From Frigoribacterium sp. Leaf415 (GTDB lineage: Bacteria > Actinomycetota > Actinomycetes > Actinomycetales > Microbacteriaceae), in the NCBI RefSeq assembly GCF_001424645.1, contig NZ_LMQR01000001.1, positions 2,228,149 through 2,292,148 on the forward strand: a stretch of DNA of 64,000 nt. The letters are read 5' to 3'. The notes below the pieces were generated by a model. That model worked only from the letters and a program-made list of their open reading frames with translations. It was not told the DNA's origin and did not search any database. The number at the start of each line of letters is the position of its first letter. Positions within the stretch are counted from its first letter, which is position 1. Below are positions 744 through 64,000 of this stretch, piece after piece. Both the position numbers and the translations under genes were made by a program.

Positions 744-820
744 AGCGACATGTCGGCAGAGGAGTGGGTGGACGAGGAGGCGCGGGCGCGTCACGAGGAC
801 GACGCCCGCCCCGGCGCGGC

Positions 821-1441
821 TCAGTCGAAGAGGCCGTAGGCGGCGTCGAGCGTCTCGTCGGTGCTGAGCGGGGCGGCGTCGCCCGCACCCGTCGCCGTGA
901 CGGCGATCAGGCCGTGCGGCGAGAGGATCGTGCTGGCCGACGCCGTGATGCCCTGCTGCGTCACCGTCTGCGAGAACGCCTGGCCGCCGAACGCCCCGAC
1001 GCGCGAGTCGTCGACGGTCTCGACCCCCTCGGTGCCCTCGATCTGCGAGGTCTGGGCGCTGATGTCGTCGGCGCTGAACTCCTGGCGTTGGGCGAGGACG
1101 ACGATCGCCGTCACGTCGGCCGCGTCGGTGGCCTCGGTGGTCGGGGTCGCCCACTGGCAGTTCGCCTGGTCGCCCGAGAACGTGCTGTCGTCGCGCAGCT
1201 CGAGTCCGTCCACCACGCCGCCGAGCGCCGAACCGACGTCGTCGCAGCTGGCGAGGTCGTCGAAGGTGCCCTCGCCGGACGCGGTCGACCCCGAGCCGCT
1301 CGAGCCGGCCGACGACCCGCCGGAACCGGCGTCGTCACCGCCACCCGCGCCTCCTGAGGTGCAGCCGGCGAGCAGCAGGCCGAGGGCGAGCACGCCCGTG
1401 GTGGTGGCCGTCACGGCCGCTCTGCGCGTGGTCGTGGTCAT
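821..1441 (-). CDS. Predicted lipoprotein, DUF3558-like
   Basis: 206 residues. I take the ATG at 1441, not the longer frame from 1594, because it is preceded by GAGGGAG and starts a clean lipoprotein signal: basic N-terminus, hydrophobic stretch and lipobox LLLAGC with Cys27. A Gly/Ser-rich linker follows, and just after the Cys it is partly encoded by the dispersed 10-mer (1345). The mature domain has a Cys pair (ASCDDV, ANCQW) and resembles small actinobacterial DUF3558-type lipoproteins on the outer face of the membrane. Function unknown. Confidence 0.75.
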   Translation of the reverse strand: MTTTTRRAAVTATTTGVLALGLLLAGCTSGGAGGGDDAGSGGSSAGSSGSGSTASGEGTFDDLASCDDVGSALGGVVDGLELRDDSTFSGDQANCQWATPTTEATDAADVTAIVVLAQRQEFSADDISAQTSQIEGTEGVETVDDSRVGAFGGQAFSQTVTQQGITASASTILSPHGLIAVTATGAGDAAPLSTDETLDAAYGLFD

Positions 1442-1577
1442 CGGGGACTCCCTCGTGATCTGCCTCGGACTCGCTGCGCCCGGTGCTGTCGTCACCCTAA
1501 CGAGGGGCACCTCCGAGGACCCCGACGGGGCCACCGCCGCCGCCATCACCGCCAGCGCCGCCACCGCCACACCGCCG

Positions 1578-1619
1578 ATGTGCCGTCGAACCACACATGT
1601 GCGTAGCTCGACGGCACAT
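1578..1619. terminator. Inverted repeat downstream of the photolyase gene
   Basis: 12-bp arms ATGTGCCGTCGA (1578-1589) and its complement (1608-1619) with an 18-nt spacer; flanking ACCAC/GTGGT bases add a partial outer symmetry. It lies about 80 bp after the photolyase stop codon on the minus strand and is probably its terminator. The rest of 1442-1696 shows nothing else. Confidence 0.5.
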
Positions 1620-1696
1620 GGGTGGTTCCACTCCGACCGGTGCTCGCGAAGGGAGGCGATGGCCCGGCCCCGACGCCGACGCCACCGCGCCGCGCG

Positions 1697-3265
1697 TCAC
1701 CAGGTCGTGCGGGTGCGCTCCTGCTCGACGACGGCCTCGCGGTCGGAGAGCCCGCGCAGCCCGGCGAACTGCTGGCCCATGCGCGGGTTGCCCGCGAGCA
1801 CCGGCTCGACGCGGTCGAGGAACGCCCAGTACCCGGCGGTCACCGGGCAGGCGTCCTCGCCGAGCCGCTTCTTCGGGTCGAACCGGCACGAGCCGCAGTG
1901 GTCGGTCATGCGGTTGATGTACGCACCACCCGACGCGTACGGCTTGGTCGCGACGATGCCGCCGTCGGCGTGCTGCGACATGCCCACGACGTTGGCGGGC
2001 ATCACCCACGGGGTGCCGTCGACGTACATGTCGACGAACCACTGGTTGAGGGCCGCCGGGTCGACCCCGCGCTGCAGGGCCCAGTTGCCGAGGATCATCA
2101 GCCGCTGGATGTGGTGGTTCCAGCCGTGCCGCCGCAGCCCGTCGAGCGTGTCGCTGAGGCACTCGGCCTCGACCGCCTCGACGTCGAGCCCGGCGAACAC
2201 CTCGGGCAGGGGCTGCGTCGCCCCGAGCGCGTTGCTCGTCGTCGCGAAGTCCTCGCCGAGGTGCCAGTAGAGGTGCCAGACCCAGTCGCGCCAGCCGACG
2301 ATCTGCCGGGTGAACCCCTCGACGCTGCGCAAGGGCGCGTCGCCGGCCTGGTACGACGCGACGGCGGCCTCGACGACCTCGCGCGGGTCGAGCAGTCCGA
2401 GGTTCATGGGGGCGCTGAGCAGCGAGTGCGCCATCGTCCAGTCGCCCGACAGGGTGGCGTCCTCGAACGGGCCGAAGTCGGGCAGCCGCACCTCGACGAA
2501 GTCCGTGAGTGCGGCCGTCGCCTCGGCCCGGGTCGCGGCGAACCGTCGAGGCGCGTCGTCGCCGACGAGCCGGACGACCCCCTCGCGCTCCCAGCGCTCG
2601 AGGTCGGCCCGCACCTCGGCGTCGATGTCGTCCTCTTCGGGCCACTCCTGCGGCGGCAGGCCGAGCGTGGCGGCACCCTTCGGTGGCTTCTCGCGGTTGT
2701 CGTGGTCGTAGTTCCACTGGCCTCCGACGGGCTGGGGGCCCTCCATCAGCAGGCCGGTGCGCTGGCGCACGGCCCGGTACCAGTCCTCCATCAGGAGGCG
2801 CGGTGCCGGTCGACCGCCGGACGCGCCGGTGGGTCGACCCGCGCCTCCTCGACGGGCGTCGTCGGCGTCCGCCGTGGCGCCTCCGGACCGGCCCGAGCCG
2901 CGACCGCCCTGGCGACCGGCGGCCCACTCGGCGAACTCGGCCTCGCTCGAGACGAAGCCGCGACTCGGCAGCACCTCGGCGCCGACCGACCGCACGAGGC
3001 GGCGGGCCCGGTACGACGTGGGATCGATCACCTGCAGGTCGTCCCGCCCCTCGAGTGCCTCGGAGTAGTGCTCGACCTGCCGGAACTCGACGCGGTCGCC
3101 CAGTTCGGCCGCCCGGTGCCGGATCGCCGACAGGATCAGCTGCAGCTTGGCGCGGTGCAGGGTGCGACCCTGCCACGACGAACGGCTCTCGATCAGCAGC
3201 ATCGGGTCGCCGTCGTCGAAGTGCGGGCCGAGCTGGTCGAGGAAGATCCACCGGGTGCGCTGCAT
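1697..3265 (-). CDS. FeS-BCP type photolyase/cryptochrome (PhrB/CryB-like)
   Basis: 522 residues, a normal length for the iron-sulfur bacterial cryptochrome/photolyase group, which holds FAD and a 4Fe-4S cluster and repairs (6-4) or pyrimidine-dimer UV lesions. The N-terminus (WIFLDQLGPHF) fits the Rossmann antenna domain. Cluster cysteines are visible: one in AECLSD, then C-x2-C-x12-C in DHCGSCRF...EDACP at about 457, 460 and 473. Residues around 115-157 are a Gly/Arg/Ala-rich linker containing two copies of the dispersed 10-mer (2794, 2839). ATG at 3265 is chosen because TACTGT stands 6 nt upstream, a leaderless promoter. Divergent from the Gls24 gene. Confidence 0.88.
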   Translation of the reverse strand: MQRTRWIFLDQLGPHFDDGDPMLLIESRSSWQGRTLHRAKLQLILSAIRHRAAELGDRVEFRQVEHYSEALEGRDDLQVIDPTSYRARRLVRSVGAEVLPSRGFVSSEAEFAEWAAGRQGGRGSGRSGGATADADDARRGGAGRPTGASGGRPAPRLLMEDWYRAVRQRTGLLMEGPQPVGGQWNYDHDNREKPPKGAATLGLPPQEWPEEDDIDAEVRADLERWEREGVVRLVGDDAPRRFAATRAEATAALTDFVEVRLPDFGPFEDATLSGDWTMAHSLLSAPMNLGLLDPREVVEAAVASYQAGDAPLRSVEGFTRQIVGWRDWVWHLYWHLGEDFATTSNALGATQPLPEVFAGLDVEAVEAECLSDTLDGLRRHGWNHHIQRLMILGNWALQRGVDPAALNQWFVDMYVDGTPWVMPANVVGMSQHADGGIVATKPYASGGAYINRMTDHCGSCRFDPKKRLGEDACPVTAGYWAFLDRVEPVLAGNPRMGQQFAGLRGLSDREAVVEQERTRTTW

Positions 3266-3271
3266 GCCCCG

Positions 3272-4468: not shown

Positions 4469-5731
4469 ACGGTCGCTCGCGAGCACCGCGACCAGCACCA
4501 CCGCGGCCACCACGATGTAGAGCACGGGCAGCGAGTCGAGCCCGGACCCGTCGAGCACGAGCGCGCCGATCAGCGCACCTCCACCGATGCCGGCATTGAA
4601 GCCGGTCGTGTAGAACGCGCTCGCCAGGTCGCGCATCCGCTCGGGGGCGACCTGCAGCATGCGCGTCTGGAACAGCGGCGGCAGCGCCCCGAACGTCACG
4701 CCCCACAGCACGAAGGCCACGAGCGACGGTACGAGCATCCCCTCGAACAGCAGCATGCCGGTCACGGCGAGACCGACCACGGCCACCCCGATGGGGATGC
4801 TCACCCGCGGCCGCGCCCCGAGGAACCAGCCGACCATGCCGAGCCCGACGGCCCCGGCGACGCCGAACGCGAAGAGCCACCCGGCGAGGCCCTGCTCGGG
4901 CACGCCGGTCGACCGCACGAGGTACGGCGTGATGTAGGTGAAGAACGAGTAGTGCCCGATCATGAAGACCGCCGTGATGACGCAGCTCAGCACGACACCG
5001 AGCACGCTCGGCTTCGGCAGCGCGCGACGACGACGGACGGCAGCACCCGTAGGAGGCGCGGTGCCGTCGACCAGCGTCGGGATCGCGTCGGTCACCGGCT
5101 CCGGCGTCGACTCGTGCGCCGTGCCCCGACCGACCGGCGGCAGGAACCTGTACACGAAGACCGCCCCGAGCGCCATGAGCCCGGCGAGGATGCCGAACGC
5201 CTCACGCCAGCCGAGGGCCTGACCGAGCGCCGTGCCGAGCGGGACGCCCAGCACGAACGCGAGGGTGCCGCCGCTCATCGCGACGGCGAGCGCCCGGCCG
5301 ACCTGGGCCCGCGGCACGAGGTGACCGGCGTAGGCACCACCGATCGCCCAGAACATGCCGTGGGCGAGACCGCCGAGCACGCGGCTCGCGAGCACGAGCT
5401 CGTAGGTGGGCGCGATGGCGGTCAGGCCCGCGCTGATCGCGAGGACGACGATCAGACCGACGACGATGAGGTGCCGGGGCAGGCGCCGGGTGAGGTGGGT
5501 CAGTCCGGTGCTGGTGAGGACGACCGTGAAGGCGAAGACGCTGACGAGCAGGCCGATGCTCGACTCGGTGACGCCGAGGTCGGCGCTCATCTCGGGCAGC
5601 AGGCCGGTCGGCAGCATCTCGCCCGAGATCGAGAGGAACGTGGCGACGGCGATGGCGATCAGGCCGGCCCACGGGAAGCGGGCGGACGGGGTGGACGAGG
5701 GCGCGGTGGGGCGCGGGGGTGCGAGTGTCAT
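4433..5731 (-). CDS. MFS transporter, 12-TM efflux type
   Basis: 432 residues with two six-helix halves typical of drug/sugar/nucleoside efflux members of the AraJ/YdhP group. Motifs include FPWAGLIAIAVATFLSISGEMLPTGLLP in helix 1 (shown in part), ASRVLGGLAHGMFWAIGGAY and a cytoplasmic loop after helix 6. That loop (PTLVDGTAPPTGAAVRRRR) is partly encoded by a dispersed 10-mer copy at 5052, in a place where extra residues would be tolerated. ATG at 5731 is the first Met in frame near the first helix; its ribosome site is weak. The 3' end lies in a tandem duplication. Confidence 0.82.
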   Translation of the reverse strand: MTLAPPRPTAPSSTPSARFPWAGLIAIAVATFLSISGEMLPTGLLPEMSADLGVTESSIGLLVSVFAFTVVLTSTGLTHLTRRLPRHLIVVGLIVVLAISAGLTAIAPTYELVLASRVLGGLAHGMFWAIGGAYAGHLVPRAQVGRALAVAMSGGTLAFVLGVPLGTALGQALGWREAFGILAGLMALGAVFVYRFLPPVGRGTAHESTPEPVTDAIPTLVDGTAPPTGAAVRRRRALPKPSVLGVVLSCVITAVFMIGHYSFFTYITPYLVRSTGVPEQGLAGWLFAFGVAGAVGLGMVGWFLGARPRVSIPIGVAVVGLAVTGMLLFEGMLVPSLVAFVLWGVTFGALPPLFQTRMLQVAPERMRDLASAFYTTGFNAGIGGGALIGALVLDGSGLDSLPVLYIVVAAVVLVAVLASDRLLARRSVRRVA

Positions 5732-6655: not shown

Positions 6656-6760
6656 CGCGGACCGGGCCCGCGCCTCCATCCCCCTGGCGGCCGAGATCGT
6701 GCGGACGGGAACCGAGCGTCCCCGGGAACGCACACCGCGCCTCCCGCGTTGACTGTCACC

Positions 6761-7198: not shown

Positions 7199-7744
7199 TC
7201 AGACGGGCTGCAACGCCGACCAGGGCTCGACGGGCAGGTCGACGCCGACGGGGTCTCCGGGGCGCAACTCTCCCCCGGCGAGCACCACACCCATGACTCC
7301 CGCCTTGCGGACGAGCTCGCCGGCCTCGTCGCGTCCGACCACGGCCTTCAGCAGGCCCGACTCGAAGCGGTCGATCTGCAGGCACGGGTTGCGGAGTCCG
7401 GTGATCTCGACCCGCGCCTCCTGACCGAGGGAGACCACGGTGCCGACGGGCAGGGCGAGCAGGTCGACCCCGTGGGTGGTGACGTTCTCGCCGAGGTCGC
7501 CGGGCCCGACGTCGTAGCCGAGGGCGGCCAACTCGGCGAAGAGCTCGGCGTGCATCAGGTGCACCTGCCGCAGGTTGGGCTGGTTCGGGTCACGGGCCAC
7601 GCGGGAGCGGTGCTGCACCGTGCGCCCGAGGTGCGCGTCGCCCTCGACGCCGAGCCCGACGAGCAGGGTGACCCGCTCGACGGGCGGCTTGCTGAACCGG
7701 TGGGCGTCGTCGACGTTGACCGAGAGGACGGAGGCGCGGGTCAT
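7199..7744 (-). CDS. MOSC domain protein
   Basis: 181 residues covering the MOSC beta-barrel found in molybdenum-cofactor sulfurases and YiiM-like proteins. Visible features: GVEGDAHLGRTVQHRSR, NLRQVHLMH, GDLGENVTTHGVDL and RNPCLQID with the conserved Cys that could carry sulfur or Mo-cofactor. The first codons (Met-Thr-Arg-Ala-Ser) are encoded by a copy of the dispersed 10-mer (7730), and a second copy (7412) lies further in. ATG at 7744 starts the conserved domain almost at once. It may serve the molybdenum enzymes 2-8 kb away. Confidence 0.83.
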   Translation of the reverse strand: MTRASVLSVNVDDAHRFSKPPVERVTLLVGLGVEGDAHLGRTVQHRSRVARDPNQPNLRQVHLMHAELFAELAALGYDVGPGDLGENVTTHGVDLLALPVGTVVSLGQEARVEITGLRNPCLQIDRFESGLLKAVVGRDEAGELVRKAGVMGVVLAGGELRPGDPVGVDLPVEPWSALQPV

Positions 7745-8436: not shown

Positions 8437-8742
8437 ACCGCGCCTCCTCGGGTCGTCGAGCCTGGGCGCACAGGATCGGTCCTCCCCCTTGACGAGCAGG
8501 TCGACGATCTCGCATGCGTGGTCGGTACGCACCCTGAGACGTCGACCATCCGATCGCCGAACGAACTCGACTCCTGGCCCGAAGGTGAGGAGCAGCGATC
8601 GGGTGCGCCCGGGCGCGAACCGCGACCCGAGACCACCTGTACCGGTCGGGGACATGTCGATCTCACGACACGTCTCGACATCGTTCGCCGGGACGAACGC
8701 CGACCACCACCCCGTGGAAACCCTGATCCCGGTCGAGCCCAC
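8434..8742 (-). CDS. Small hypothetical protein
   Basis: About 102 residues from a GTG at 8742; the frame has a stop seven codons earlier. CAGGA about 10 nt before the GTG could be the ribosome site. The sequence TGWWSAFVPANDVETCREIDMSP followed by RSLLLTFGPGVEFVRRSDGRRLRVRTDHACEIVDLL (quoted in pieces) looks like a small beta-rich domain. No family recognised. The end lies inside the promoter of the next minus-strand gene. Confidence 0.5.
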   Translation of the reverse strand: MGSTGIRVSTGWWSAFVPANDVETCREIDMSPTGTGGLGSRFAPGRTRSLLLTFGPGVEFVRRSDGRRLRVRTDHACEIVDLLVKGEDRSCAPRLDDPRRRG

Positions 8743-9644: not shown

Positions 9645-10385
9645 TCAGGCGGGCGCGTCGACGTCGCGGCCGTCCCAGAGGTCGGAGCAGTCGACCGGCT
9701 CGGCGGCGTGGGCCCGCAGGTACGGGCCCGCCCCGCGATCCCCGGTGAGGGACGCCGCGAGTGCCGACCAGTGGGAGCGACCGACCACGACGGGGTGACC
9801 CGGGCGTCCGTGGAAGACGGACTGCCGCAGCGCACCCGGACCCAGGGGCACGTCGGCGGCCGGGGGCGTCAGCAACCGTGCGACCGCGGACGACGGCAGA
9901 CCCGGGTAGTCGACCAGCGTGACGAGGGCGAGCCGCGCCTCCTCGGGGTCCGACGCGGCGAGCGCCTCCAGCCCGGCGCGCAGCGACGCCGCGAGGCCGT
10001 CGGCCCAGTCGTCCGCGACGACGACCGACACCCTCGCCCGACCGTCGACCCCGAGGAGGCGCGGGTCGTCCGAGAACGCGCCCGTCGCCCCGTCCGACCC
10101 CGGCGACCCGACCGGCAGGAGGCGCGGGTCGGCGGCCAGCAGCGCTCGCGCCTCGGTCGCGCCCGCACCGAGCACGACGACGACGCGGTCACAGCCCCCG
10201 TCGAGCAGCGTCGCCACGGCACGGGTCAGCCAGGGTCCGCGCTCGTCGACCACGAGCGCCTTGGGGCGGCCCATGCGCGTCCCGGCACCGGCCGCGAGCA
10301 GCAGTCCGACCGAGGAGGGCGGGCCGACGGACGGCGGGTCGACCGGCGGCAGGCCGTCGGACGGCGGAGCGACGATCTCGGGCAT
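9645..10385 (-). CDS. MobA/MocA-like molybdenum cofactor cytidylyltransferase
   Basis: 246 residues of the NTP-transferase fold. The Gly-rich nucleotide loop LLLAAGAGTRMGRPKAL and the motif VTLVDYPGLPSSAV are visible, plus GRPGHPVVVG near the end. The MocA branch makes molybdopterin cytosine dinucleotide for xanthine-oxidase-family enzymes. Its position beside an XdhC-like gene and a PaoABC-type operon supports that role. Three dispersed 10-mer copies (9933, 10055, 10118) are in the coding region; two of them encode Asp-Pro-Arg-Leu-Leu. TAGCCT stands 6 nt before the ATG. Confidence 0.83.
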   Translation of the reverse strand: MPEIVAPPSDGLPPVDPPSVGPPSSVGLLLAAGAGTRMGRPKALVVDERGPWLTRAVATLLDGGCDRVVVVLGAGATEARALLAADPRLLPVGSPGSDGATGAFSDDPRLLGVDGRARVSVVVADDWADGLAASLRAGLEALAASDPEEARLALVTLVDYPGLPSSAVARLLTPPAADVPLGPGALRQSVFHGRPGHPVVVGRSHWSALAASLTGDRGAGPYLRAHAAEPVDCSDLWDGRDVDAPA

Positions 10386-10504: not shown

Positions 10505-11479
10505 GTGTTCGAGATCGCCGACCGCCTGCTGGCGCGACTCGACGCCGGCGAGCGCCTGGCAGTCGCGACCGCCGTGTCGGTTGTGGGCAGCGCGCCGCGC
10601 ACCGTCGGCACGTCCATGGCCGTCACCGTCGACGGCACCGTGATCGGCAGCATCTCGGGCGGCTGCGTCGAGGGCGCGGTCTACGAGATCTGCGCGCAGG
10701 TGCTCGACGACGGCACGCCGCAGCTCGAGACGTTCGGATTCAGCGACGAGACGGCGTTCGAGGTCGGGCTCAGCTGCGGCGGGCGCATCGAGGTGCTCGC
10801 CCGTGTCGTCACCCCGGACGACGCCGTGACGATCGCCGCCCTCCGCGACGCGGCCGCCGGGCGGGAGGCGTCGACCCACGTCGTGCTCGGGCCGGTCCGC
10901 ACCGGCGAGGTCGTGCCGACGATCGACGACTGCGAGGGTCTGCGGGTCTTCAGCGAGCGCTCGGTGCCGCCGCCGCGCCTCCTCGTCTTCGGGGCGGTCG
11001 AGTTCGCCGTCGCCCTCTGCAACGCCGGGGCGGTGCTGGGCTACCGCGTGACGGTGTGCGACCCGCGCCCCGTGTTCATGACCCGCGAGCGCTTCCCGTC
11101 GGCCGACGAGGTCGTCGTCGAGTGGCCGCCGAACTACCTGGCGCGCACCGACGTCGACGAGCGCACCGTCATCGCGGTGCTCTCGCACGACGAACGGTTC
11201 GACGCCGACCTGGTCGAGGCGGCGCTCGCGTCCCCCGCGGCGTACGTCGGGGCGATGGGTTCGCGGACGACCCACGACCGCCGCATGGCCGCACTGCGGT
11301 CGCGTGACGTGGGGCCCGACGCGCTGGCCCGCCTGCACTCCCCCATCGGGCTCGACCTCGGTGCCAGCACGCCCGAGGAGACCGCCGTGTCGATCCTGGC
11401 CGAGGTGCTCGCCGTCCGCTCGGGAGCCTCGCGGGCCCCGCTGCGCGACCGTGACGGCAGCATCCACCTGATCCGCTGA
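10505..11479 (+). CDS. XdhC/PaoD-like molybdenum enzyme maturation factor
   Basis: 324 residues with the XdhC/CoxI N-terminal domain (VSVVGSAPRTVGTSMAVT, GSISGGCVEGAVYE, LSCGGRIEV) and the C-terminal Rossmann part (PPRLLVFGAVEFAVALC, VAAMGSR-like YVGAMGSRTT, HSPIGLDLGA). Such proteins bind sulfurated Mo-cofactor and insert it into xanthine-oxidase-family enzymes. GTG at 10505 is preferred over the longer frame because GAGGAG stands 6 nt before it. Divergent from the MocA-like gene, convergent with the oxidoreductase operon. Confidence 0.87.
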   Translation: MFEIADRLLARLDAGERLAVATAVSVVGSAPRTVGTSMAVTVDGTVIGSISGGCVEGAVYEICAQVLDDGTPQLETFGFSDETAFEVGLSCGGRIEVLARVVTPDDAVTIAALRDAAAGREASTHVVLGPVRTGEVVPTIDDCEGLRVFSERSVPPPRLLVFGAVEFAVALCNAGAVLGYRVTVCDPRPVFMTRERFPSADEVVVEWPPNYLARTDVDERTVIAVLSHDERFDADLVEAALASPAAYVGAMGSRTTHDRRMAALRSRDVGPDALARLHSPIGLDLGASTPEETAVSILAEVLAVRSGASRAPLRDRDGSIHLIR

Positions 11480-11492: not shown

Positions 11493-11528
11493 CAGGAGGC
11501 GCGGTGCCCGCCGACACCGCGCCTCCTG
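11493..11528. terminator. Bidirectional hairpin from inverted dispersed 10-mers
   Basis: 14-bp arms CAGGAGGCGCGGTG (11493-11506) and its complement (11515-11528) around an 8-nt loop, between the convergent XdhC-like gene and the PaoC-like gene. Both arms are full copies of the dispersed repeat. Confidence 0.75.
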
Positions 11529-14798: not shown

Positions 14799-15400
14799 CG
14801 GGTGGCTCCGTCGGTCGCGTCGGCGTCGTGCGCGCAGGCCGCGTCGTGCACGGCCGGGACGATGTTCATGTAGGCCCCGCACCGACACAGGTTGCCGCTG
14901 AGACGTTCGCGGACCTCCTCGTCGTCGAGGTCGATCTCGCCGTTGGTGATGTCGGTGGTGACGTGGCTCGGCATGCCGGCCCGCGCCTCCTCGAGCATGC
15001 CGACCGTCGAACAGATCTGGCCCGGCGTGCAGTAGCCGCACTGGTAGGCGTCCCGGTCGAGGAACGCCTGCTGCACCGGGTGCAGGGCGTCGCCGTCGGC
15101 GAGCCCCTCGACGGTGGTGACGTCACTGCCCTCGGCGCTGACGGCGAGGACCAGGCAGCTGTTGGTGCGTCGTCCGTCGACCAGGACCGTGCAGGCGCCG
15201 CACTGGCCGTGGTCGCAGCCCTTCTTCGAGCCGGTCAGGTCGAGGCGCTCCCGCAGGGCGTCGAGCAACGAGGTGCGGTTGTCGACCTCGAGCCGGTGCG
15301 GGCTGCCGTTGACGTCGAGCGTGATCGTCGTCGTCGGAACGCCGGGCGGGTTCGCGCCCGCGCTCGGTGGACTGGTTTCTACGCTGACCTGGGACACCAT
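14795..15400 (-). CDS. Aldehyde oxidoreductase 2Fe-2S subunit (PaoA/YagT-like)
   Basis: 201 residues with both 2Fe-2S domains: plant-ferredoxin type GCDHGQCGACTVLVDG, and the all-helical domain with QCGYCTPGQ and LCRCGAYMNI. The first gene of the operon. No obvious Tat signal: the N-terminus is short and lacks a twin-Arg motif, so the enzyme may stay in the cytoplasm, unlike E. coli PaoABC. TACCGT lies 6 nt before the ATG, a leaderless promoter. A copy of the dispersed 10-mer (14981) encodes part of MLEEARAGMP. Confidence 0.9.
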   Translation of the reverse strand: MVSQVSVETSPPSAGANPPGVPTTTITLDVNGSPHRLEVDNRTSLLDALRERLDLTGSKKGCDHGQCGACTVLVDGRRTNSCLVLAVSAEGSDVTTVEGLADGDALHPVQQAFLDRDAYQCGYCTPGQICSTVGMLEEARAGMPSHVTTDITNGEIDLDDEEVRERLSGNLCRCGAYMNIVPAVHDAACAHDADATDGATR

Positions 15401-15412: not shown

Positions 15413-15560
15413 TGCCCGGGGGCGGGCGGGTGCCCGCGTGCTGTCCCGTTTGCGAAGCGCGGAGCCGGGGGGCTGTCGACGCCCGCGTGGCGGGCCGAGG
15501 GGGGGTGCCGAGGAGGCGCGGGTCGGCCGCCGCGGACGGCCCGCCGACCGGCACCCCGCG

Positions 15561-15819: not shown

Positions 15820-15846
15820 CCCGCGCCTCCTCGTCCGCGGAGCGCG

Positions 15847-16807: not shown

Positions 16808-18916
16808 CTAGCGGGTGAGGACGGCGAAGCCGCCGGGCTTCACCACGATCACGCTGCGGCCCTGCACGTCGCGCTGCTGCACGAGTCGGCCCTGCGCGTC
16901 GTACGACGACACCGACGACCGGGTGCCGCGCACGCCGACCGAGGCCGGCAGCGGCAGCCGCGAGGTCGACGACAGCAGCTCGGTCGTCGTCGCCCGCCCG
17001 TCGGCCGCCGTGCCCGCGAGCACGAGTCGCTGGACGAGCGGCCGCACGATCAAGCCGTCGACCACGGTCGCGGCGCGCCCGGCGGTCACGGTGATCGTGG
17101 TCGTACCCGCACCGATCGGCACCGGCAGCGTCTGGGGCAGCAGGGCCCCGGAGGCGGCGGTCACGCCCCGCGCACCGGCCTGCGTCGTCAGCGTCCCCAG
17201 GGGCACGCGTCCCGCCTTCCAGACCGACGTCGACCGCACGCCCTCGGCGGCGAGCAGCACCGGTTCGACGTGCCGCAACCCGGAGCCCGCGGGCACCGTG
17301 ATCGTCGCACTCTGCCCGGGCTCGAGCCGCAAGGCCGAGCCGCCGCCGTACTGCGACTCGCCCGTCCACGCCGAGTCGGGCGTGACGACCGTGCCCGTCG
17401 TGGACGCCGCCGTCTCGGCCTCGACCACCGTCAGGCCGTCACGCGACGTGACGCTCGTCAGCCCCTGCGCCTCGGCCGAGACGTCGGGGGCACCGTCGAG
17501 GGCGATCATCGACAGCAGGCCGTGGATCGTGCTCTCGGCGCCGCTGTTGCGGTTCACCGTGCCGTCGGCCTGCACGCCGTCGAACGTCACGCCGGTGGCC
17601 GGGTCGTACACGGGGGTGCCCGAACGGTTCGTGCCGAAGTACCAGCTCGCGGCGACGGCCGCGATCCGCTTCAGGCCCGGCGCACCCGCACCGGCGCCGG
17701 CCACGGCGAGCGCCGACTGCAGTCGCGAGTCGGCCCCGTAGGCGATCTGGGTCTGGTCGACGGGCGTCGGGTACCAGGCGTTGTCGGGCCCGCTCGCGGT
17801 GAGCAGCGTCGTCGTGAACGAGGTCTGGTCGAGCACGGCGGGCTTCAGCAGGTCGGGTCGGGCGAGCGTCGTCGACGCCCGGGCCAGGGCGGCGGGCATC
17901 TGCGACGACCAGGCGTGCCACATCGAGCGGGACTTCGCCCAGGGCAGCACGGCTCCGTACGGCCAGGTCTGCCCGTCGCCGGACGACATCGCGGCGACGC
18001 CCTCGGCGAGCTGCGTCAACGCGGTGCGCGAGGCCGCGTCACCCGGCACGACGGCCGAGTAGGCGCTCAGTCCGAGGACGGCCTCGGCCGAGGCGTCCGC
18101 GCCGGAGCCGATCAGCCACGCGGGCACCTTCGCCCCGTCGGCCACGTCGTACTGCCCGTAGCGGGCGAGCGTCTCGCGGTTCAGCGCCGTCACGCCGAGT
18201 TGCAGACGCTGCTGCAGGAACGCGGCGAACTCGGGGTCCTCGTCGGCGAACGCGGCGTATCCCTCGCCGAACGCCCAGATGCTGCGGGCGAGCCAGTAGC
18301 TGTTGCCGCTGTCCGACGGGTCGGGTAGCTCGACCGGCACCGGACTCTGGTTGAAGGTGCCGTCGGGCTGCATCCAGAGCACGACGTTGCCGGCGTCCTC
18401 ACCGGTGGTCGTCTGGAAGTACGCGGTCGCCCGCAGCAGTTCGTAGGCCTTCTGCCGGCTCGACTCCGAACCGGTCTGCTGCCAGTCGCGCAGGTACACG
18501 ACGGCCGTCCGCGAGACGTCGTCGCTGTTGAACGCGCCCTGCCCCCAGTACCCGGTCGCGGGGTCGAGCGGACCGCCGCCCACCCGGGCGAAGGTGCCGC
18601 CGTCGCGGGCGTCGGCGTAGGTCCACGGCAGGGTGAGCGTCGGCTCCGTGCTCTGACGATAGGTCGAGTGGCCGGCCTCGGGCACGGGCGTCGTCCGGTC
18701 GAGCAGGAAGTCCAGGTGCGCCAGGTTCGTCAGCGGCGCCACGGCCGGTGCGGCCGCCGGGGCGGCGGTCGGCGCGGTCGGAGCAGCCGTCCCGCTCGGC
18801 GCGGCCGCCGGACCAGGAGGCGCGGCGGCAGCCGGCAGCGCCCCCGTCACCCCCAGCACGGTCGCCAGGGCCGCGGCCAGTGCCGCGCCCGTCCATCGTG
18901 AGTTGCGTGCGATCAT
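16808..18916 (-). CDS. Large secreted protein of unclassified family in glycan locus
   Basis: 702 residues. A Sec signal peptide (basic start, then AALAAALATVLGVTGALPAAAA) is followed by an Ala/Pro linker containing a dispersed 10-mer (18816). Residues about 60-480 look like an alpha/alpha-toroid (WTYADARDGGTF, GYWGQGAFNSDDVSRTAVVYLRDW, DSGNSYWLARSIWAFGEGY; each quoted within limits). Such folds occur in glycoside hydrolases and polysaccharide lyases. The C-terminal 220 residues are beta-rich and may bind carbohydrate. I cannot name a CAZy family. AAGGAGG precedes the ATG. Last gene of the GH130/ABC operon, so a role in releasing mannose-containing glycans is an inference. Confidence 0.7.
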   Translation of the reverse strand: MIARNSRWTGAALAAALATVLGVTGALPAAAAPPGPAAAPSGTAAPTAPTAAPAAAPAVAPLTNLAHLDFLLDRTTPVPEAGHSTYRQSTEPTLTLPWTYADARDGGTFARVGGGPLDPATGYWGQGAFNSDDVSRTAVVYLRDWQQTGSESSRQKAYELLRATAYFQTTTGEDAGNVVLWMQPDGTFNQSPVPVELPDPSDSGNSYWLARSIWAFGEGYAAFADEDPEFAAFLQQRLQLGVTALNRETLARYGQYDVADGAKVPAWLIGSGADASAEAVLGLSAYSAVVPGDAASRTALTQLAEGVAAMSSGDGQTWPYGAVLPWAKSRSMWHAWSSQMPAALARASTTLARPDLLKPAVLDQTSFTTTLLTASGPDNAWYPTPVDQTQIAYGADSRLQSALAVAGAGAGAPGLKRIAAVAASWYFGTNRSGTPVYDPATGVTFDGVQADGTVNRNSGAESTIHGLLSMIALDGAPDVSAEAQGLTSVTSRDGLTVVEAETAASTTGTVVTPDSAWTGESQYGGGSALRLEPGQSATITVPAGSGLRHVEPVLLAAEGVRSTSVWKAGRVPLGTLTTQAGARGVTAASGALLPQTLPVPIGAGTTTITVTAGRAATVVDGLIVRPLVQRLVLAGTAADGRATTTELLSSTSRLPLPASVGVRGTRSSVSSYDAQGRLVQQRDVQGRSVIVVKPGGFAVLTR

Positions 18917-20092: not shown

Positions 20093-20129
20093 GGAGGCGC
20101 GGCGCGAGGGGGGATCGCACCGCGCCTCC
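20093..20129. terminator. Hairpin from inverted dispersed 10-mers, first of two
   Basis: GGAGGCGCGG at 20093-20102 and its complement at 20120-20129 with a 17-nt spacer. Together with the hairpin at 20180-20216 it separates the permease genes from the GH130 gene inside one directional cluster. Confidence 0.6.
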
Positions 20130-20179: not shown

Positions 20180-20216
20180 GGAGGCGCGGCGAGCGGTGAT
20201 CGCGCACCGCGCCTCC
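20180..20216. terminator. Hairpin from inverted dispersed 10-mers, second of two
   Basis: GGAGGCGCGG at 20180-20189 and its complement at 20207-20216; flanking CCGA/TCGG extends the stem. Lies 20 bp after the permease stop codon, a normal terminator position. Confidence 0.65.
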
Positions 20217-45087: not shown

Positions 45088-45279
45088 CGCCCTGCGGCCC
45101 TGCGGCCCTGCGGCTCAGCGGCTCAGCGGCCCTGCCGCGCGGCCGCACTGCCGCACTGCCGCGCGTCGAATGCGGGCGAGTTCGTGTGTTCCGGGCCGGC
45201 ACGATCGCCCGTCCACCCCGAACACGCCCGTGTTCAGAGGGCCGCGGCGTCCAGGCGGCACCACGGCAGGAGGCGCGGG
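45088..45279. other. GC-rich intergenic region with short repeats
   Basis: Contains reiterated CCCTGCGG, GGCTCAGC and CCGCACTG units (45088-45165), a partial inverted repeat around the doubled motif GTGTTC (45184, 45230), and one dispersed 10-mer (45269). It lies between convergent genes; no coding potential that I can support. Confidence 0.55.
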
Positions 45280-46193: not shown

Positions 46194-47846
46194 TCAGCGG
46201 AGGCGGCGGCCGGCGGCCCAGAGGCCGATCAGCCCCGAGGGGCCGAGGCGCGGCGTCGCGTAGGTGGCCCGGTCGGCGTAGGCCCTGGGATCGATCAGCT
46301 GCAGGTCGGCGACGGCCCCGGGGTCGATGCCGAGCGCGCCTCCTGCACCGCCGACGGGCGCACCACCAGCCACGCCGCGACCGCCCAGCCCGAACCGCGA
46401 GGAGGCGCGGGTCGACATGCGTGCGATCGCTTCGCCCCGGGACAGCACGGCCCGCGGCCCCGACCCGGCGTACTCGTCGAGCACGCGCGAGAACGTGCCG
46501 TACAGCCGCGGGTGCACGGTGCCGGTCTCGCGCGGCAGACCGTCCGACCCGACCAGGGTGTGCGGCCAGGCCAGGGCCGTCCGCATGCCCTCGAGGTCGG
46601 TGTGGAACACGATGACGGTGAGGGCGCCCTGCTCGGCGAGGACGAGGTCGGCAAGCACTTCGCGCGGGTCGGCACCGACCGACGCGGCGATCTCGGCCAC
46701 CGACCGGCCCTCGAAGGCCGCGTGCTCGGGTCGCGTGAACCCCGCCAGCGAGATCCGTGCGGGGCCGATCGCGGCGTACTGGTTCTCGAGCGTCGTCTCG
46801 GCCCAGGGCTCGAGCAGCCCGTCGAGCACCTGACGCCGCGAGCGCGTGCCGGGCCGGAGCGCCTCGAGCAGGCTCTCGACCCCGCGGTCGGCCGTGGCCG
46901 GAGGGAACAGCGACGCGACCGTCGTGCTGCCCGCGTCGTACGGGTAGACGTCCGCGCTGACGTCGACCCCCGAGTCGCGCAGGGCGTCGAGGTGCTCGAC
47001 GATCGCGGGCATGCCGCCGACGTTCCGCGGTCCGGTCACCTTGAGGTGGCTGATGTGGACGGCGGCCCCGGTCTCGCGTCCCAGCGAGGCCAGCTCGTCG
47101 ATCGAGTCGCGGAGACCGTCGGCCTCGTTGCGGACGTGGGCGACCAGCAGCGTGCCCCGCACCGCGCACTCCCCGGCCAGGGCGACGAGCTCGGGCCGGT
47201 CGGCGGCGTCGCCGGGTGCGTACATCAGGCCGAGCGAGACGCCGAGGGCCCCGGCGTCGAGCGCGTCACCCACCGACGCCGCGATGAGCGACCGCTCGGC
47301 GGCGTCGGCCGGACGTCGCTCGAAGCCGAGCACGCCCGCCCGCAGCGGTGCGTGCGGCACGAGGGTCGCCGCGTGCAGGCCGAACCGCCCGTCAGCGTCG
47401 CCGTCGGCCAGCGTCCGCACGTAGTCGGCGAACGTCGCCCATCGTCGCGCAGGGAACCCGCCGAGCACCGGCCGCGAGTAGTCCTCGAGCGAACGGTCGT
47501 CGGGATCGGTCGGCGACGGTGCGACGCCCTGGCCGCAGTTGCCGACGATCGTGGTCGTCACGCCCTGCCCGGTCTTGGGCGCGACCCCTCCCGGGCGGAA
47601 GAGCGCCGCGTCGTCGTGCGCGTGCACGTCGACGAACCCCGGCAGCACGTCGAGCCCGCTCGCGTCGACCACCTCGACACCGTCCGGCACCCCGGACGAG
47701 GAGGCGCGGTGCCCGTCACCGACGGACGTCACCGCCCCGACCCCCACGGCCGTGACCACCCCGTCGCGCACGACGACGTCCGCGACGCGACCCGCGCCTC
47801 CGGACCCGTCCCAGACCGTCCCGCCCGCGAGCACCACCGTCGTCAC
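46194..47846 (-). CDS. N-acyl-D-amino-acid deacylase (D-aminoacylase)
   Basis: 550 residues of the amidohydrolase superfamily: VLPGFVDVHAHDDAAL with the first metal-binding HxH, TIVGNCGQGVAP, HVRNEADGL, VHISHLKVTG, and VGSDGLPRETGTVHPR. It releases D-amino acids from N-acyl-D-amino acids, as found after peptidoglycan turnover. GTG at 47846. Three full dispersed 10-mers (46401, 47700, 47802) encode linker-like parts such as MSTRASSRFG and SVGDGHRASSSGVPD. Confidence 0.87.
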   Translation of the reverse strand: MTTVVLAGGTVWDGSGGAGRVADVVVRDGVVTAVGVGAVTSVGDGHRASSSGVPDGVEVVDASGLDVLPGFVDVHAHDDAALFRPGGVAPKTGQGVTTTIVGNCGQGVAPSPTDPDDRSLEDYSRPVLGGFPARRWATFADYVRTLADGDADGRFGLHAATLVPHAPLRAGVLGFERRPADAAERSLIAASVGDALDAGALGVSLGLMYAPGDAADRPELVALAGECAVRGTLLVAHVRNEADGLRDSIDELASLGRETGAAVHISHLKVTGPRNVGGMPAIVEHLDALRDSGVDVSADVYPYDAGSTTVASLFPPATADRGVESLLEALRPGTRSRRQVLDGLLEPWAETTLENQYAAIGPARISLAGFTRPEHAAFEGRSVAEIAASVGADPREVLADLVLAEQGALTVIVFHTDLEGMRTALAWPHTLVGSDGLPRETGTVHPRLYGTFSRVLDEYAGSGPRAVLSRGEAIARMSTRASSRFGLGGRGVAGGAPVGGAGGALGIDPGAVADLQLIDPRAYADRATYATPRLGPSGLIGLWAAGRRLR

Positions 47847-47919: not shown

Positions 47920-48705
47920 CTACTCGAAGCGCTGCCACACGGGCTTGTTCGCGTACGTGTAGCGGTAGTAGTCCGCCAGCTGCAGGTCGGCCGCGGCGGC
48001 CTCGTCGACCACGATCGTCGCGTGCCGGTGCAGCTGCAACGCGCTGCCCGGGCACATCGCGCTGAGCGGCCCCTCGACCATGCCCGCGACGGCCGCCGCC
48101 TTGGCCGTCCCCTGCGCCACGAGCACGACCTCGTGCGCGTCGAGGATCGTGCCGAGCCCCTGGGTCAGGCAGTGCGTGGGCACCTGTGACGGGTCGTCGA
48201 AGAAGCGTGCGTTGTCGGCTCGGGTCTGCGGCGCGAGCGTCTTGATGCGGGTGCGCGAGGCGAACGACGAGGTGGGCTCGTTGAAGCCGATGTGCCCGTT
48301 CGCGCCGATGCCGAGGATCTGGATGTCGATGCCGCCCGCGTCGACGATGGCCTGCTCGTAGTCGACGACGGCCGCCTCGATGTCGCTCGCTCGGCCGTCG
48401 GGCACGCGCACCTTCGACGCGTCCATGCCCAGCGGCACGACGACGTCGCGCTCGATCACCGACGCGTAGCTCTCGGGATGCTCGAGCGGGATGCCGACGT
48501 ACTCGTCGAGCGCGAACCCGGAGGCGCGGCCGAAGTCGAGCTCGCCCGCCGCGACCCGGGCCGCGAGCGAGGCGTAGATGCCGGTCGGCGACGACCCGGT
48601 CGCGAGGCCCAGCACGGCCTCGGGCTCGCGCTGCACGACCGACGCGATCTTGAGGGCGGCGACGCGGCCGACCTCGTCGGAGTCGCGGACGATGATGATC
48701 TCCAT
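47920..48705 (-). CDS. nagB: Glucosamine-6-phosphate deaminase
   Basis: 261 residues, normal NagB length. VLGLATGSSPTGIYASL phosphate loop, FALDEYVGIP with the catalytic Asp, GIGANGHIGFNEPTSSF with the catalytic His, and VVLVAQGTAKAAAVAGMVEGPL. Converts GlcN-6-P to fructose-6-P and ammonia, the last step of GlcNAc catabolism after NagA. ATG at 48705 with GGAG. It follows the GH20 gene by 24 bp in the same direction. Confidence 0.94.
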   Translation of the reverse strand: MEIIIVRDSDEVGRVAALKIASVVQREPEAVLGLATGSSPTGIYASLAARVAAGELDFGRASGFALDEYVGIPLEHPESYASVIERDVVVPLGMDASKVRVPDGRASDIEAAVVDYEQAIVDAGGIDIQILGIGANGHIGFNEPTSSFASRTRIKTLAPQTRADNARFFDDPSQVPTHCLTQGLGTILDAHEVVLVAQGTAKAAAVAGMVEGPLSAMCPGSALQLHRHATIVVDEAAAADLQLADYYRYTYANKPVWQRFE

Positions 48706-48729: not shown

Positions 48730-50451
48730 TCAGGTGATGTTCGCCACGACCGACGCGATGTACGCCTCGCGTTCTTCCCGCGAGGCCGGCCGTCCGGGCA
48801 CGCCCGGACGCTGCTGCCACGGTAGCGGCCCCGACTCGTGCCGGTACTCGACGCCGATCGCGTCGAGGCGTCCGAGGTGCACGGCGAGGCGTGTGGAGAA
48901 GTCGTCGAAGTCCCGCGGTTCGGTCGTCCACAGCGCCTCGGCGACGGCGCACAACCGGGGGAAGGCGAAGAAGTCGACGGTGCGGGGCGAGTCCATGTGC
49001 TCGGTCCAGATGTTGGCCTGACCGCCGAGCACGTGGCGGGCCTCGACCTCGTCGAGGACGGCCGGCACGGGCTCGAACGCGTACACGTCGGCGAGGGTCA
49101 GCGGGATCGACACGGGGATCGGCTCGTCCGGCCCGTCGGACTGCCGGTAGTCGAGGTAGACCTGGTCGTCCGGGCAGGCGACGACGTCGTACCCGCGTCG
49201 CGCGGCCGTGACGGCTCCGGTCATGCCCCGCCACGACGCGACCGTCGCGCCGGGCGACATCGTCGCGTTCCCCTCGAGGATCTCGTCCCAGCCGAAGGTG
49301 CGTCGCCCGGCCGCCGTGAGATGCGCGTCGAGCCGCCCGATGAACCACGCCTGCAGCTCTTCCTCGTCGGCGAGCCCGCGTTCGCTCATCAACTCCTGCG
49401 TGCGCGGGTCGGCCTGCCACTGGGCCTTGGGACACTCGTCGCCGCCGATGCCGATCCAGGTGCCCGGGAAGAGCTCCATGACCTCGTCGAGCACGTCGGT
49501 GTAGAAGTCGACCGTCGACTGCTCGGTGTTGAGGACGTCCTCGAAGATGCCCCACTCGGTGCCGACGGCGATCTGTCGCGGCTCCGCGACGGGCGTGCCG
49601 CCGACCTCGACGGCGCCGACGCCCAGGTGCGGGTACGCCGTGATCGCCGCCATCGAGTGGCCCGGCACGTCGACCTCGGGCACGACCGTGATGTGACGGG
49701 CGGCGGCGTAGGCGACGACCTCACGGATGTCGTCCTGCGTGTAGAAGCCGCCGTGCGGTCGACCGTCCTGGGTCGCGTCCGGCCCGGCCCCCACCTGCGT
49801 CGACTCCCGCCAGGCACCGACCGAGGTGAGGCGCGGATACTTCGTGATCTCGATGCGCCAGCCCTGGTCCTCGGTGAGGTGCCAGTGCAGCGTGTTCAGC
49901 CGGTGCAGCGCCATCAGGTCGACGAACCGCAGCACGTCGTGCTTCGGCAGGAAGTGCCGGGCGACGTCCAGGTGCGTCCCCCGCCACCCGAACCGCGGCC
50001 GGTCCTCGACGTCGACGGCGGGCACGACCCAGTCGACCCCGGTCACGAGGGCCGACCGGTACACGGCCGCGGGCAGCAGCTGACGCAGCACATGCGCCCC
50101 GTGGAACGCGCCGGCCGCGTCGCCACCGGTGATGCGCACCCCGGCGGGTCGCGCCTCCAGCCGGTACGCCTCGGCCCCGAGCGAGGCGTCGAGGTCGAAC
50201 GAGATGCCGGTGCCGTCGGCGCTGCCCTCGCGCAGCGGCAAGCCGGTCGCCAGGCGCAGCGCCTGCTGCAGCCAGGCGACGACGCCCGCCAGCTCGTCGG
50301 GCGCCGAGACACGCGTCGCCTCGTCGAGGCGGAACGCCCCGGAGGCGCGGGTCAGCCTCGCCGGGCGGGGCACGATCGCGACCGGTGCGGTCTCGGGCGT
50401 CCCGGTGCCGGCCCGCGAGGTGGCCGAGGGGGTCGAGGATGCGTTCGTCAC
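48730..50451 (-). CDS. GH20 beta-N-acetylhexosaminidase
   Basis: 573 residues. N-terminal GH20b domain, then the barrel: RGTHLDVARHFLPKHDVLRF, TLHWHLTEDQGWRIEI, VVPEVDVPGHSMAAI and IGIGGDECPKAQW with the catalytic Asp-Glu pair, ARHVLGGQANIWTEHMDSP late. No signal peptide, so it acts on imported chitobiose or N-glycan fragments in the cytoplasm. GTG at 50451, 4 bp after the permease gene. A 10-mer copy (50341) encodes LTRASG before the first strand. Confidence 0.92.
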   Translation of the reverse strand: MTNASSTPSATSRAGTGTPETAPVAIVPRPARLTRASGAFRLDEATRVSAPDELAGVVAWLQQALRLATGLPLREGSADGTGISFDLDASLGAEAYRLEARPAGVRITGGDAAGAFHGAHVLRQLLPAAVYRSALVTGVDWVVPAVDVEDRPRFGWRGTHLDVARHFLPKHDVLRFVDLMALHRLNTLHWHLTEDQGWRIEITKYPRLTSVGAWRESTQVGAGPDATQDGRPHGGFYTQDDIREVVAYAAARHITVVPEVDVPGHSMAAITAYPHLGVGAVEVGGTPVAEPRQIAVGTEWGIFEDVLNTEQSTVDFYTDVLDEVMELFPGTWIGIGGDECPKAQWQADPRTQELMSERGLADEEELQAWFIGRLDAHLTAAGRRTFGWDEILEGNATMSPGATVASWRGMTGAVTAARRGYDVVACPDDQVYLDYRQSDGPDEPIPVSIPLTLADVYAFEPVPAVLDEVEARHVLGGQANIWTEHMDSPRTVDFFAFPRLCAVAEALWTTEPRDFDDFSTRLAVHLGRLDAIGVEYRHESGPLPWQQRPGVPGRPASREEREAYIASVVANIT

Positions 50452-61661: not shown

Positions 61662-61665
61662 CCGG

Positions 61666-63054: not shown

Positions 63055-63112
63055 GGTGCTCCTTTGCTCCAGTCGCGTCGGCGCCGGGCTGCTCTGCCCG
63101 ACCGCGATGCGA

Positions 63113-63133
63113 TTACTACATCGTATGGAGTAA
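63113..63133. promoter_or_regulatory. Putative operator of the alpha-mannosidase operon
   Basis: TTACTACAT-CGT-ATGGAGTAA, a 21-bp inverted repeat with one mismatched position, in the only AT-rich stretch between the ROK gene and the binding-protein gene. Likely bound by the ROK regulator whose gene ends at 63285. Confidence 0.65.
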
Positions 63134-63184
63134 CTCGTGTCAAGATCTTCTCGCGCAACGGTCCGGTAACGACGCGACGGCCGA

Positions 63185-63274
63185 GGAGGCGCGGGTCAGG
63201 ACGGCAGGAGGCGCGGGTCACGACGCCAGGAGGCGCGGGCCACGCAGGAGGCGCGGGCCACGCAGGAGGCGCGG
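63185..63274. repeat. Five-copy tandem array of the dispersed 10-mer
   Basis: GGAGGCGCGG starts at 63185, 63207, 63229, 63247 and 63265, all in the same direction, spacing 22, 22, 18 and 18 bp. The last unit spacers share CACGCA. It fills the region between the ROK gene stop and the operon promoter. Confidence 0.9.
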
Positions 63275-63284
63275 CTCGGCCCCG

Positions 63285-64000
63285 TCAGGCGCGGATCAGC
63301 AGGGCGGACGGTCGCGGCGAGAACGTCTGGTCGAGCACCAGGCAGGCCGCTCCGACGGCCGCGACGTCGATGCCGATCGACGACTCGACGAGCCGGATCG
63401 GGTGCTTCGGGATCAGCGCGGGGTCGTCGCGGAGCGCGGCCGGCAGCACCGCGAGGACGTGCCGCGACAGCGGCGCCCAGAACGGCCCGCCGAAGACGAC
63501 CTCGTCGAGGTCGAGCAGGTTGACGATGGTCACCAGGGCCCGGGCGAGGTGTCGCCCGGCGCCGTGCAGCACGTGCAAGGCCCCGGCGTCGCCCTCGTCC
63601 GCCTTGCCGACCAGGGCGACGAACGCCTCGTCGATGCGACGCATGTCGACGTCGTCCCCGCTGTGCGCCGCCTCGGCGAGCGCGTCGTCCGACACGTCCC
63701 CCTCGACCAGCACTCCCGTGGCGACGGCCTCGCGCACGAGGGCGTGCGGCGTGATCAGCTCGCCCACGCAGCCGATCCGTCCGCAGGTGCAGCGGTGACC
63801 GTGGTCGTCGACCATCACGTGCCCCGAGTCCCCCGCGTTCGCGCTGGCCCCGCGCAGCACGTCGCCGCCGAGCACGAGCCCGGTGCCGTAGCCGGTGCCG
63901 TAGTAGACGAAGGCGAAGTCGCTGCGCTCACCCGCGCCTCCGTCGCTCAGCCAGAGCTCGGCGACCGCGCAGGCCGTGACGTCCTTCTCGAGCAGGACCG
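63285..64000 (-). CDS. ROK family protein, N-terminus outside window
   Basis: Last 237 residues; the frame is open to the window end. ROK domain with FVYYGTGYGTGLVLGGDVLRGAS, SGHVMVDDHGHRCTCGRIGCVGELI (zinc ligands) and DLDEVVFGGPFWAPL. The position upstream of the alpha-mannosidase operon and the weakly conserved active-site area suggest a repressor rather than a kinase, but the HTH part is not in the window. A 10-mer copy (63932) encodes SDGGAGE. Confidence 0.82.
   Translation of the reverse strand, partial: VLLEKDVTACAVAELWLSDGGAGERSDFAFVYYGTGYGTGLVLGGDVLRGASANAGDSGHVMVDDHGHRCTCGRIGCVGELITPHALVREAVATGVLVEGDVSDDALAEAAHSGDDVDMRRIDEAFVALVGKADEGDAGALHVLHGAGRHLARALVTIVNLLDLDEVVFGGPFWAPLSRHVLAVLPAALRDDPALIPKHPIRLVESSIGIDVAAVGAACLVLDQTFSPRPSALLIRA

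Follow-up and report, generated by a model that had tools for sequence, protein, structure and literature searches.

The stretch analysed here, referred to as the window, comprises 64,000 nt of Frigoribacterium sp. Leaf415 (NZ_LMQR01000001.1, positions 2,228,149-2,292,148) and carries many copies of the 10-bp word GGAGGCGCGG. Exact copies number 55 (28 on the + strand, 27 on the - strand), spanning positions 776-63941, compared with an expectation of 1.67. An earlier note on this DNA had reported 53 exact copies against about two expected, at a density of about one per 1.2 kb. The strong excess on both strands, the range and the expectation are borne out, and the density agrees with the one copy per 1.16 kb found here; the count itself had to be corrected to 55. 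Genes were called with a simple codon-score caller written for this analysis, which places 33 of the 55 copies in coding and 22 in intergenic sequence. The window was aligned to five sister species at 86-89% identity. The copies, with their positions in the window, are the following.

776..785, +, word, intergenic
1345..1354, -, word, coding
2794..2803, +, word, coding; opposite-strand word 45 bp downstream
2839..2848, -, word, coding
5052..5061, +, word, coding
6668..6677, -, word, intergenic
6735..6744, -, word, intergenic
7412..7421, -, word, coding
7730..7739, +, word, coding
8438..8447, -, word, intergenic
9933..9942, -, word, coding
10055..10064, +, word, coding
10118..10127, +, word, coding; identical in 5/5 aligned sister species
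10973..10982, -, word, coding; identical in 5/5 aligned sister species
11495..11526, inverted word pair (11495 +, 11517 -), hairpin between convergent genes, 15 bp from both 3' ends
14981..14990, -, word, coding
15512..15521, +, word, intergenic
15821..15830, -, word, intergenic
18816..18825, +, word, intergenic
20093..20129, inverted word pair (20093 +, 20120 -), hairpin
20180..20216, inverted word pair (20180 +, 20207 -), hairpin; both words opposite gaps in sister species G008
22076..22085, +, word, coding; followed by the 8-base inverted partner GCGCCTCC
24155..24164, -, word, coding
25979..25988, -, word, intergenic
26329..26338, +, word, coding
26578..26587, -, word, coding
28306..28315, -, word, coding
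28355..28364, +, word, coding
30840..30849, +, word, coding; identical in 5/5 aligned sister species
31602..31611, +, word, intergenic, adjoining a long palindrome
31685..31694, -, word, coding
32447..32456, -, word, coding; one shared difference, G10C, in 5/5 sister species
32632..32641, -, word, intergenic
33558..33567, +, word, coding; identical in 5/5 aligned sister species
34796..34805, -, word, coding
35606..35615, -, word, coding
36641..36650, -, word, coding
37037..37046, -, word, coding
37807..37816, +, word, coding (low-scoring gene call)
43623..43632, -, word, coding; identical in 5/5 aligned sister species
45269..45278, +, word, intergenic
46401..46410, +, word, coding
47700..47709, +, word, coding
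47792..47801, -, word, coding
48520..48529, +, word, coding
50341..50350, +, word, coding
63185..63274, +, five tandem words (63185, 63207, 63229, 63247, 63265) in units of 18-22 bp, intergenic
63932..63941, -, word, coding; identical in 5/5 aligned sister species

For each of the five sister species, several units of the tandem array at 63185-63274 lie opposite alignment gaps. The word at 32447..32456 was probably gained by substitution in this lineage, since the same G10C difference is found in all five.

In 100 dinucleotide shuffles of the window, the count of GGAGGCGCGG never rose above 6, and the word is the window's top 10-mer under both a Markov-5 (4.0 copies expected) and a Markov-3 model (0.7 expected). 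A 444-kb sample was composed of the window and 19 other stretches along the genome, with 387 called genes; one stretch (L020, 1,455 bp) was omitted from gene-based counts. In this sample GGAGGCGCGG is again the top 10-mer under Markov-5, with 241 copies compared to 17.6 expected. Under Markov-7, where the word's own 8-mers set the expectation, the 241 copies compare to 162.6 and the word ranks third, after two words that overlap it. The excess that the earlier note had proposed to hold against Markov models therefore stands in the window as well as in the sample. Genome-wide (3.42 Mb), 1,725 copies were counted (867 + and 858 -), compared to 67 of the reversed word used as control (37 + and 30 -). 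The mean density is thus one copy per 2.0 kb, the window being denser.

The copies are embedded in the looser consensus A-GGAGGCGCGG-[GT]-[TG]-C-G (A-GGAGGCGCGG-K-K-C-G), which is alike in coding and intergenic copies. Conservation outside the 10-mer is mainly confined to A at position -1 and [GT][TG]CG at +11 to +14, with little information past about -6 and +17. The extended motif of the 15-bp consensus described earlier was thus recovered, except for S at -2, which carries little information. A longer mobile element or mobile palindrome of the repetitive extragenic palindrome (REP) or miniature inverted-repeat transposable element (MITE) type was considered and rejected: no long conserved flank surrounds the word, and because only a short flank is conserved, alike within and between genes, no longer element is being copied.

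Within coding regions of the 444-kb sample, 140 copies were found, compared to a mean of 14.7 (maximum 23) in 30 within-gene shuffles of synonymous codons. All six phases exceed the shuffle mean: on the sense strand with 34 copies versus 1.5, 26 versus 4.9 and 1 versus 0.07, on the antisense strand with 53 versus 4.6, 13 versus 3.2 and 13 versus 0.4. Synonymous codon use is thereby refuted as the cause; loss of the enrichment under codon modelling, which the earlier note had named as a refuting result, is not seen in the 444-kb sample. The further remarks that the word occurs in differing reading phases, on either strand and as inverted pairs all proved correct. Single-step mutational conversion fares no better as a source. 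The 30 one-mismatch words, taken together, were seen 222 times versus 228 expected; since this pool is not depleted, no single mutational step explains the excess. A few of them are scarce (A3C 20 seen versus 39 expected, G1C 6 versus 17, G7C 1 versus 13), most of those altered at position 9 or 10 are in excess, and the largest deficit, about 19 for A3C, compares to an excess of GGAGGCGCGG of about 131.

The word is five-fold denser between genes (1.79/kb) than in coding sequence (0.36/kb) in the 444-kb sample. Intergenic density depends on gene arrangement: it is 2.6/kb where the neighbouring genes converge, 2.3/kb where they are in tandem and 0.6/kb where they diverge, and 71 of 101 intergenic words are closer to the 3' end of a gene than to a 5' end. 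There are 32 neighbouring word pairs within 60 bp; 15 of them are arranged as + then -, and 14 of these 15 are spaced 20-28 bp. The inverted pairs of the window at this spacing fold as hairpins with no obvious T tract. As a separate observation, a stretch of low G+C content (L009:4001-10000, 53-66% per kb) contains no word, and the high-G+C DNA downstream of it has several.

All 16 Frigoribacterium species examined contain GGAGGCGCGG in excess, with 842-1,725 copies compared to 41-148 of the reversed word; the flanks of the word drift slightly between clades of the genus. A survey of 299 Microbacteriaceae genomes from 78 genera, eight of the genomes being Frigoribacterium, revealed enrichment otherwise only in g29 and in one g51 species, so that equal enrichment across the family is not seen. 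We suspect that g29 is Curtobacterium. Its genomes are graded, with 688, 673, 220, 598, 456 and 216 copies and, in one that is hardly enriched, 79. The g51 species (G065) has 399 copies versus 142 of the reversed word; no conserved flank surrounds its extra copies, and their density between genes does not exceed that within genes. The 11-mer AGGAGGCGCGG occurs 1,239 times in the Leaf415 genome versus at most 29 times in each of 296 other genomes of the order, a draw that contained neither other Frigoribacterium nor g29. Scans of 40 kb from each of ten other genera, a small sample, yielded no comparably strong word of this kind.

Orthologous loci were then compared. Over the 55 words and five sister species, 146 comparisons were identical, 18 had one mismatch, 18 had several, 50 involved an indel and 43 were unaligned. 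Copies thus differ between sister species by mismatch and indel, and coding copies are over-conserved: 108 of 139 comparisons (0.78) are identical, compared to a mean of 0.39 and a maximum of 0.56 in 1,000 draws of 10-mers matched for gene, phase and G+C content (0.45-0.53 for all coding 10-mers, unmatched). Fourfold sites ending in G or C changed in 27 of 372 cases inside the word versus 1,200 of 6,938 beside it, summed over five related, non-independent species. Across 18 near and far species pairs, conservation of coding words lies above the null mean in all 18 and above every one of 500 null draws in eight; sites are few in this test, and words were scored from both species, so that each shared copy counts twice. 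At the protein level, 30 of the 33 coding words of the window were evaluated, with G006 omitted as a near duplicate of G005. The segments around the words are less conserved than the gene mean (0.77 versus 0.85, p = 0.011), and the residues encoded by the word itself are more conserved than these flanks (0.86, p = 0.0045).

Genes for DNA uptake and pili are present, as far as genes can tell. ComEA (SLBB and HHH_3) and ComEC are encoded next to each other in the Leaf415 genome, and both families occur in 16/16 species. At up to 95% identity, the best matches of this ComEC are Frigoribacterium sp. records, in agreement with the genus. A Tad locus, which adjoins a gene resembling topA by eye, encodes an ATPase, a T2SSF protein, a DUF4244 pilin-like protein with an Flp-like EY motif (by eye) and TadE; the Tad-type ATPase is found with similar score in 16/16 species. 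A type IVa-like pilus (T4aP) operon, next to a gene resembling rpoC by eye, is present in 13/16. According to Pfam it comprises PilB, a second T2SSE ATPase, PilC, a pilin, one minor pilin and a prepilin peptidase; a further minor-pilin-like protein, a PilX-like protein and PilM/N/O were recognized by eye. The search for com and pil genes suggested by the earlier note was thus positive. Two side observations concern these loci. The T4aP operon (L050:1-14300), with minor-pilin-like proteins in an actinobacterium, is wholly missing in one clade of three species. At L006:12620-16102, comEC continues in frame into holA (DNA polymerase III delta) to form one open reading frame of 1,160 codons. This fusion was found in this genome, in 6/10 Frigoribacterium records, and once (L119) among 61 other records, of which three lack a comEC match and the remainder have a stop or frame change between the two genes.

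Uptake sequences have been described for species of two families, Pasteurellaceae and Neisseriaceae (PMC7811141, PMC5031613). The DNA uptake sequences (DUS) of Neisseria are reported to be conserved, located in permissive regions and often arranged as inverted terminators (Treangen and colleagues, PMC2397512). GGAGGCGCGG resembles the DUS of Neisseriaceae in its 10-12 bp core, in its copy number on the order of a thousand per genome, in its occurrence within and between genes, in the inverted pairs at gene ends, and in its over-conservation, permissive placement and restriction to a clade (PMC2397512, PMC5031613). In contrast to DUS, it belongs to a high-G+C Gram-positive genus, has an unrelated sequence and persists in three species that lack the T4 pilus operon. 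With the uptake signal sequences of Pasteurellaceae it shares abundance and a preference for weakly constrained coding positions (PMC7811141); the A/T-rich helper tracts of those sequences have no clear counterpart in the flanks of GGAGGCGCGG, and machinery and phylum differ. On balance, we lean towards GGAGGCGCGG being an actinobacterial uptake-sequence system of Frigoribacterium.

Several observations weigh against this assignment. The whole T4aP operon is absent from three species (G002, G007 and G014) that keep the word at high density, and ComEC and pilus-type ATPases are found also in genera without the word. In the other ten of the 18 species pairs, the number of conserved coding words does not surpass the null maximum, and intergenic differences between species are often indels rather than substitutions. 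Neisseria DUS are described as absent from recently acquired genes (PMC2397512); here, species-specific genes carry 0.30 words/kb (8 words in 26.8 kb) versus 0.47/kb in genes shared by all lineages and 0.92/kb in genes shared by some, with G010 omitted and G005 and G006 treated as one lineage. In two g29 genomes, the words are mainly intergenic (21/28 in G206, 12/15 in G245), with coding densities of 0.06 and 0.03/kb, respectively. Finally, no open-licence PubMed Central (PMC) paper combines Frigoribacterium with natural transformation. The uptake-sequence reading of the earlier note thus gains from abundance, strand symmetry, conservation, placement, clade restriction and machinery genes, and is weakened by the clade that keeps the word without T4aP and by the absence of a clear depletion in accessory genes.

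The three species without T4aP form one clade (supports of 0.99 and 0.999 in a tree built from 17 genes, partly sampled), so that a single loss of the operon in their ancestor is the simplest reading. They carry 1,415, 1,421 and 1,562 words, respectively, and their top words are unchanged. In the pairwise test above, with its few sites, coding words are common to G007 and G014 in 10/15 cases (mean of 3.2 and maximum of 8 over 500 null draws), to G007 and G002 in 4/5 (maximum 4) and to G014 and G002 in 6/7 (maximum 6). Because this clade keeps the word, and one loss is simplest, the word is probably maintained without the T4aP pilus, which seems unnecessary for keeping it; as a necessary machine T4aP is weakened. 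The Tad-type ATPase is retained in all three species, and transformation of Micrococcus luteus requires Tad pili (PMC4322843). A model of Tad/Flp pilus, ComEA and ComEC is preferred for these two reasons, and the Tad pilus is most likely the better candidate. The resemblance to M. luteus lies in actinobacterial ComEA, ComEC and a Tad-type ATPase, all in 16/16 species; the difference is that M. luteus needs two tad clusters (PMC4322843) and one was found in Frigoribacterium, where the pilin-like gene matches DUF4244 instead of a named Flp family. The term 'uptake sequence' is absent from the main text of that paper.

In the proposed mechanism, GGAGGCGCGG would be a genus-specific tag preferred by a putative surface DNA receptor. 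A type IV-like filament, most probably the Tad/Flp pilus as in M. luteus, would capture free DNA bearing the word, and this DNA would pass ComEA and ComEC and then recombine. Through biased uptake and recombination, molecular drive could propagate the word and restore altered copies at sites where the encoded protein permits it, and inverted pairs at gene ends may have been co-opted as terminator hairpins. Uptake bias, competence, a receptor, drive and termination by the hairpins are what we infer from these patterns. More tentatively, and with somewhat less than even confidence, we propose the first Gram-positive uptake-sequence (self-recognition) system, a third independent origin, which would operate via the Tad/Flp pilus or ComEA and not via a ComP-type T4aP pilin, and would be descended from, or feed, a terminator-stem word shared with g29. 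Among the matches listed for open-licence PMC papers, there was no prior report of uptake sequences in Actinobacteria or Gram-positives, and none apparently relevant to the word GGAGGCGCGG, as judged by titles and the starts of abstracts. If the proposal is true, sequence-tagged DNA uptake evolves repeatedly and across types of cell envelope, a system would be at hand in which some species naturally lack the T4aP operon, and the question of drive versus benefit could be tested by comparing 16 species that possess or lack parts of the machinery. If the word does not serve uptake, its maintenance at about 1,700 sites as a genus-specific 10-bp motif would call for a new explanation all the same.

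The alternative that survives best, although we consider it unlikely, is that GGAGGCGCGG is the site of a genus-specific intracellular chromosome protein, such as a nucleoid organiser or a segregation, repair or recombination factor, selected at about 1,700 sites. Much of the pattern would look alike for such a protein and for uptake: the conservation at synonymous sites, the random spacing (coefficient of variation 1.03, words less than 100 bp apart merged) and the strand symmetry fit a non-directional binding protein equally well. The inverted hairpin pairs near gene ends and the permissive placement in proteins are not naturally explained by it, and to our knowledge there is no 10-bp, one-per-2-kb site of this kind.

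Less likely still, in our judgement, is a stereotyped terminator stem as in g29, which gene conversion would have spread or which would have multiplied as a selfish repeat, with the coding copies as by-products. The g29 hairpins have the same or an overlapping core as hairpin arm, arm-and-loop hairpins are seen in the sequence of G206 and G304, and the intergenic position of most g29 words favours this origin, as do the uniform spacing of close + - pairs in Leaf415 and the variation of intergenic hairpins and the tandem array by indel between species. In contrast, exact inverted pairs at 20-28 bp number only 14 in 444 kb (28 of 241 words), and the coding copies share the short consensus with no longer conserved element and are conserved individually. 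A looser rule, allowing up to two mismatches in the hairpin partner, does no better than the control: it is uninformative because a control partner matches about as often. The g29 words also differ from those of Frigoribacterium in that coding copies are rare (0.03-0.06/kb, near the shuffle value of 0.04/kb computed in the Leaf415 genome) and the outer flanks are species-specific (GACT; GGACGG). Hairpins of G304 have a variable inner stem enclosed by the arm word GGACGGGAGGC; genome-wide, this arm word occurs 584 times in G245, 395 times in G304 and 4-11 times in seven Frigoribacterium genomes. The arm words of g29 thus differ from GGAGGCGCGG but sit in hairpins. Under the uptake reading, either Frigoribacterium made an uptake word out of a terminator stem, or g29 let an uptake word decay save at terminators. 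The stereotyped intergenic hairpins of G304 (L052-L054) deserve mention in their own right, with a constant outer arm of 11-12 bp and an inner stem that is variable yet still paired.

A polar, replication-linked motif such as Chi or the FtsK-orienting polar sequences (KOPS), which the earlier note had listed as an alternative, is very improbable. GGAGGCGCGG is indeed short, G-rich and abundant, but inverted pairs are present and the strands are evenly used. For the strand test, + and - counts were compared among 18 stretches of the main contig, the origin not being located; the C2 and C3 stretches were omitted and L007 and L008 were pooled as one row for heterogeneity. Single words numbered 93 + and 98 -, with no heterogeneity among stretches (p = 0.92). 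Against Chi in particular, the RecC family (PF04257) was found in 0/9 genomes, E. coli being the sole positive among 14 controls; AddAB/AdnAB were not searched. An origin of the excess in codon use, codon-pair preference or base composition can practically be dismissed: GAG-GCG-CGG in one phase does consist of G+C-ending codons only, but the synonymous shuffles fall far short of the coding count, the other phases and intergenic DNA are enriched too, other Microbacteriaceae genera lie near the reversed-word level, and codon-pair bias by itself is unable to give intergenic copies.

Other words and repeats were noted in the course of the analysis. CCGGATGCG was rejected as a family-wide ancestral dialect: it outnumbers the reversed control in the majority of 77 genera, but falls below it in the two Frigoribacterium genomes tested (62 versus 96 in G000, 74 versus 86 in G009), and this control contains a TAG stop, which flatters the comparison. 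CCGGATGCG reaches 1,108 copies in G100, and CCGGATGC(G) is abundant in most of the 77 genera (e.g. L193-L194, L201-L217). Coding CCGGACGC was seen 4, 5 and 17 times in three other genomes, compared to 17.7, 18.1 and 26.1 expected, and is strongly depleted where CCGGATGC is in excess in two of these three sampled genomes. This suggests a C-to-T hot spot at a methylated site, since the depletion goes in step with the excess of CCGGATGC, or another word system. In the G065 stretches L060-L062 and L083-L089, the top word is the palindrome TTTCACGTGAAA with a count of 12 (both strands counted); it is presumably the parS core and would thus be an unplanned positive control of the word scan.

Finally, the window contains near-perfect palindromes of roughly 60-75 bp that belong to several families (27517-27687, 29563-29653, 31524-31616 and 32086-32152). 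They are distinct from GGAGGCGCGG, are dispersed in genomes of the genus and match on both strands. Three of the stretches lie between called genes and one (32086-32152) inside a gene; 27517-27687 contains two copies of one palindrome.

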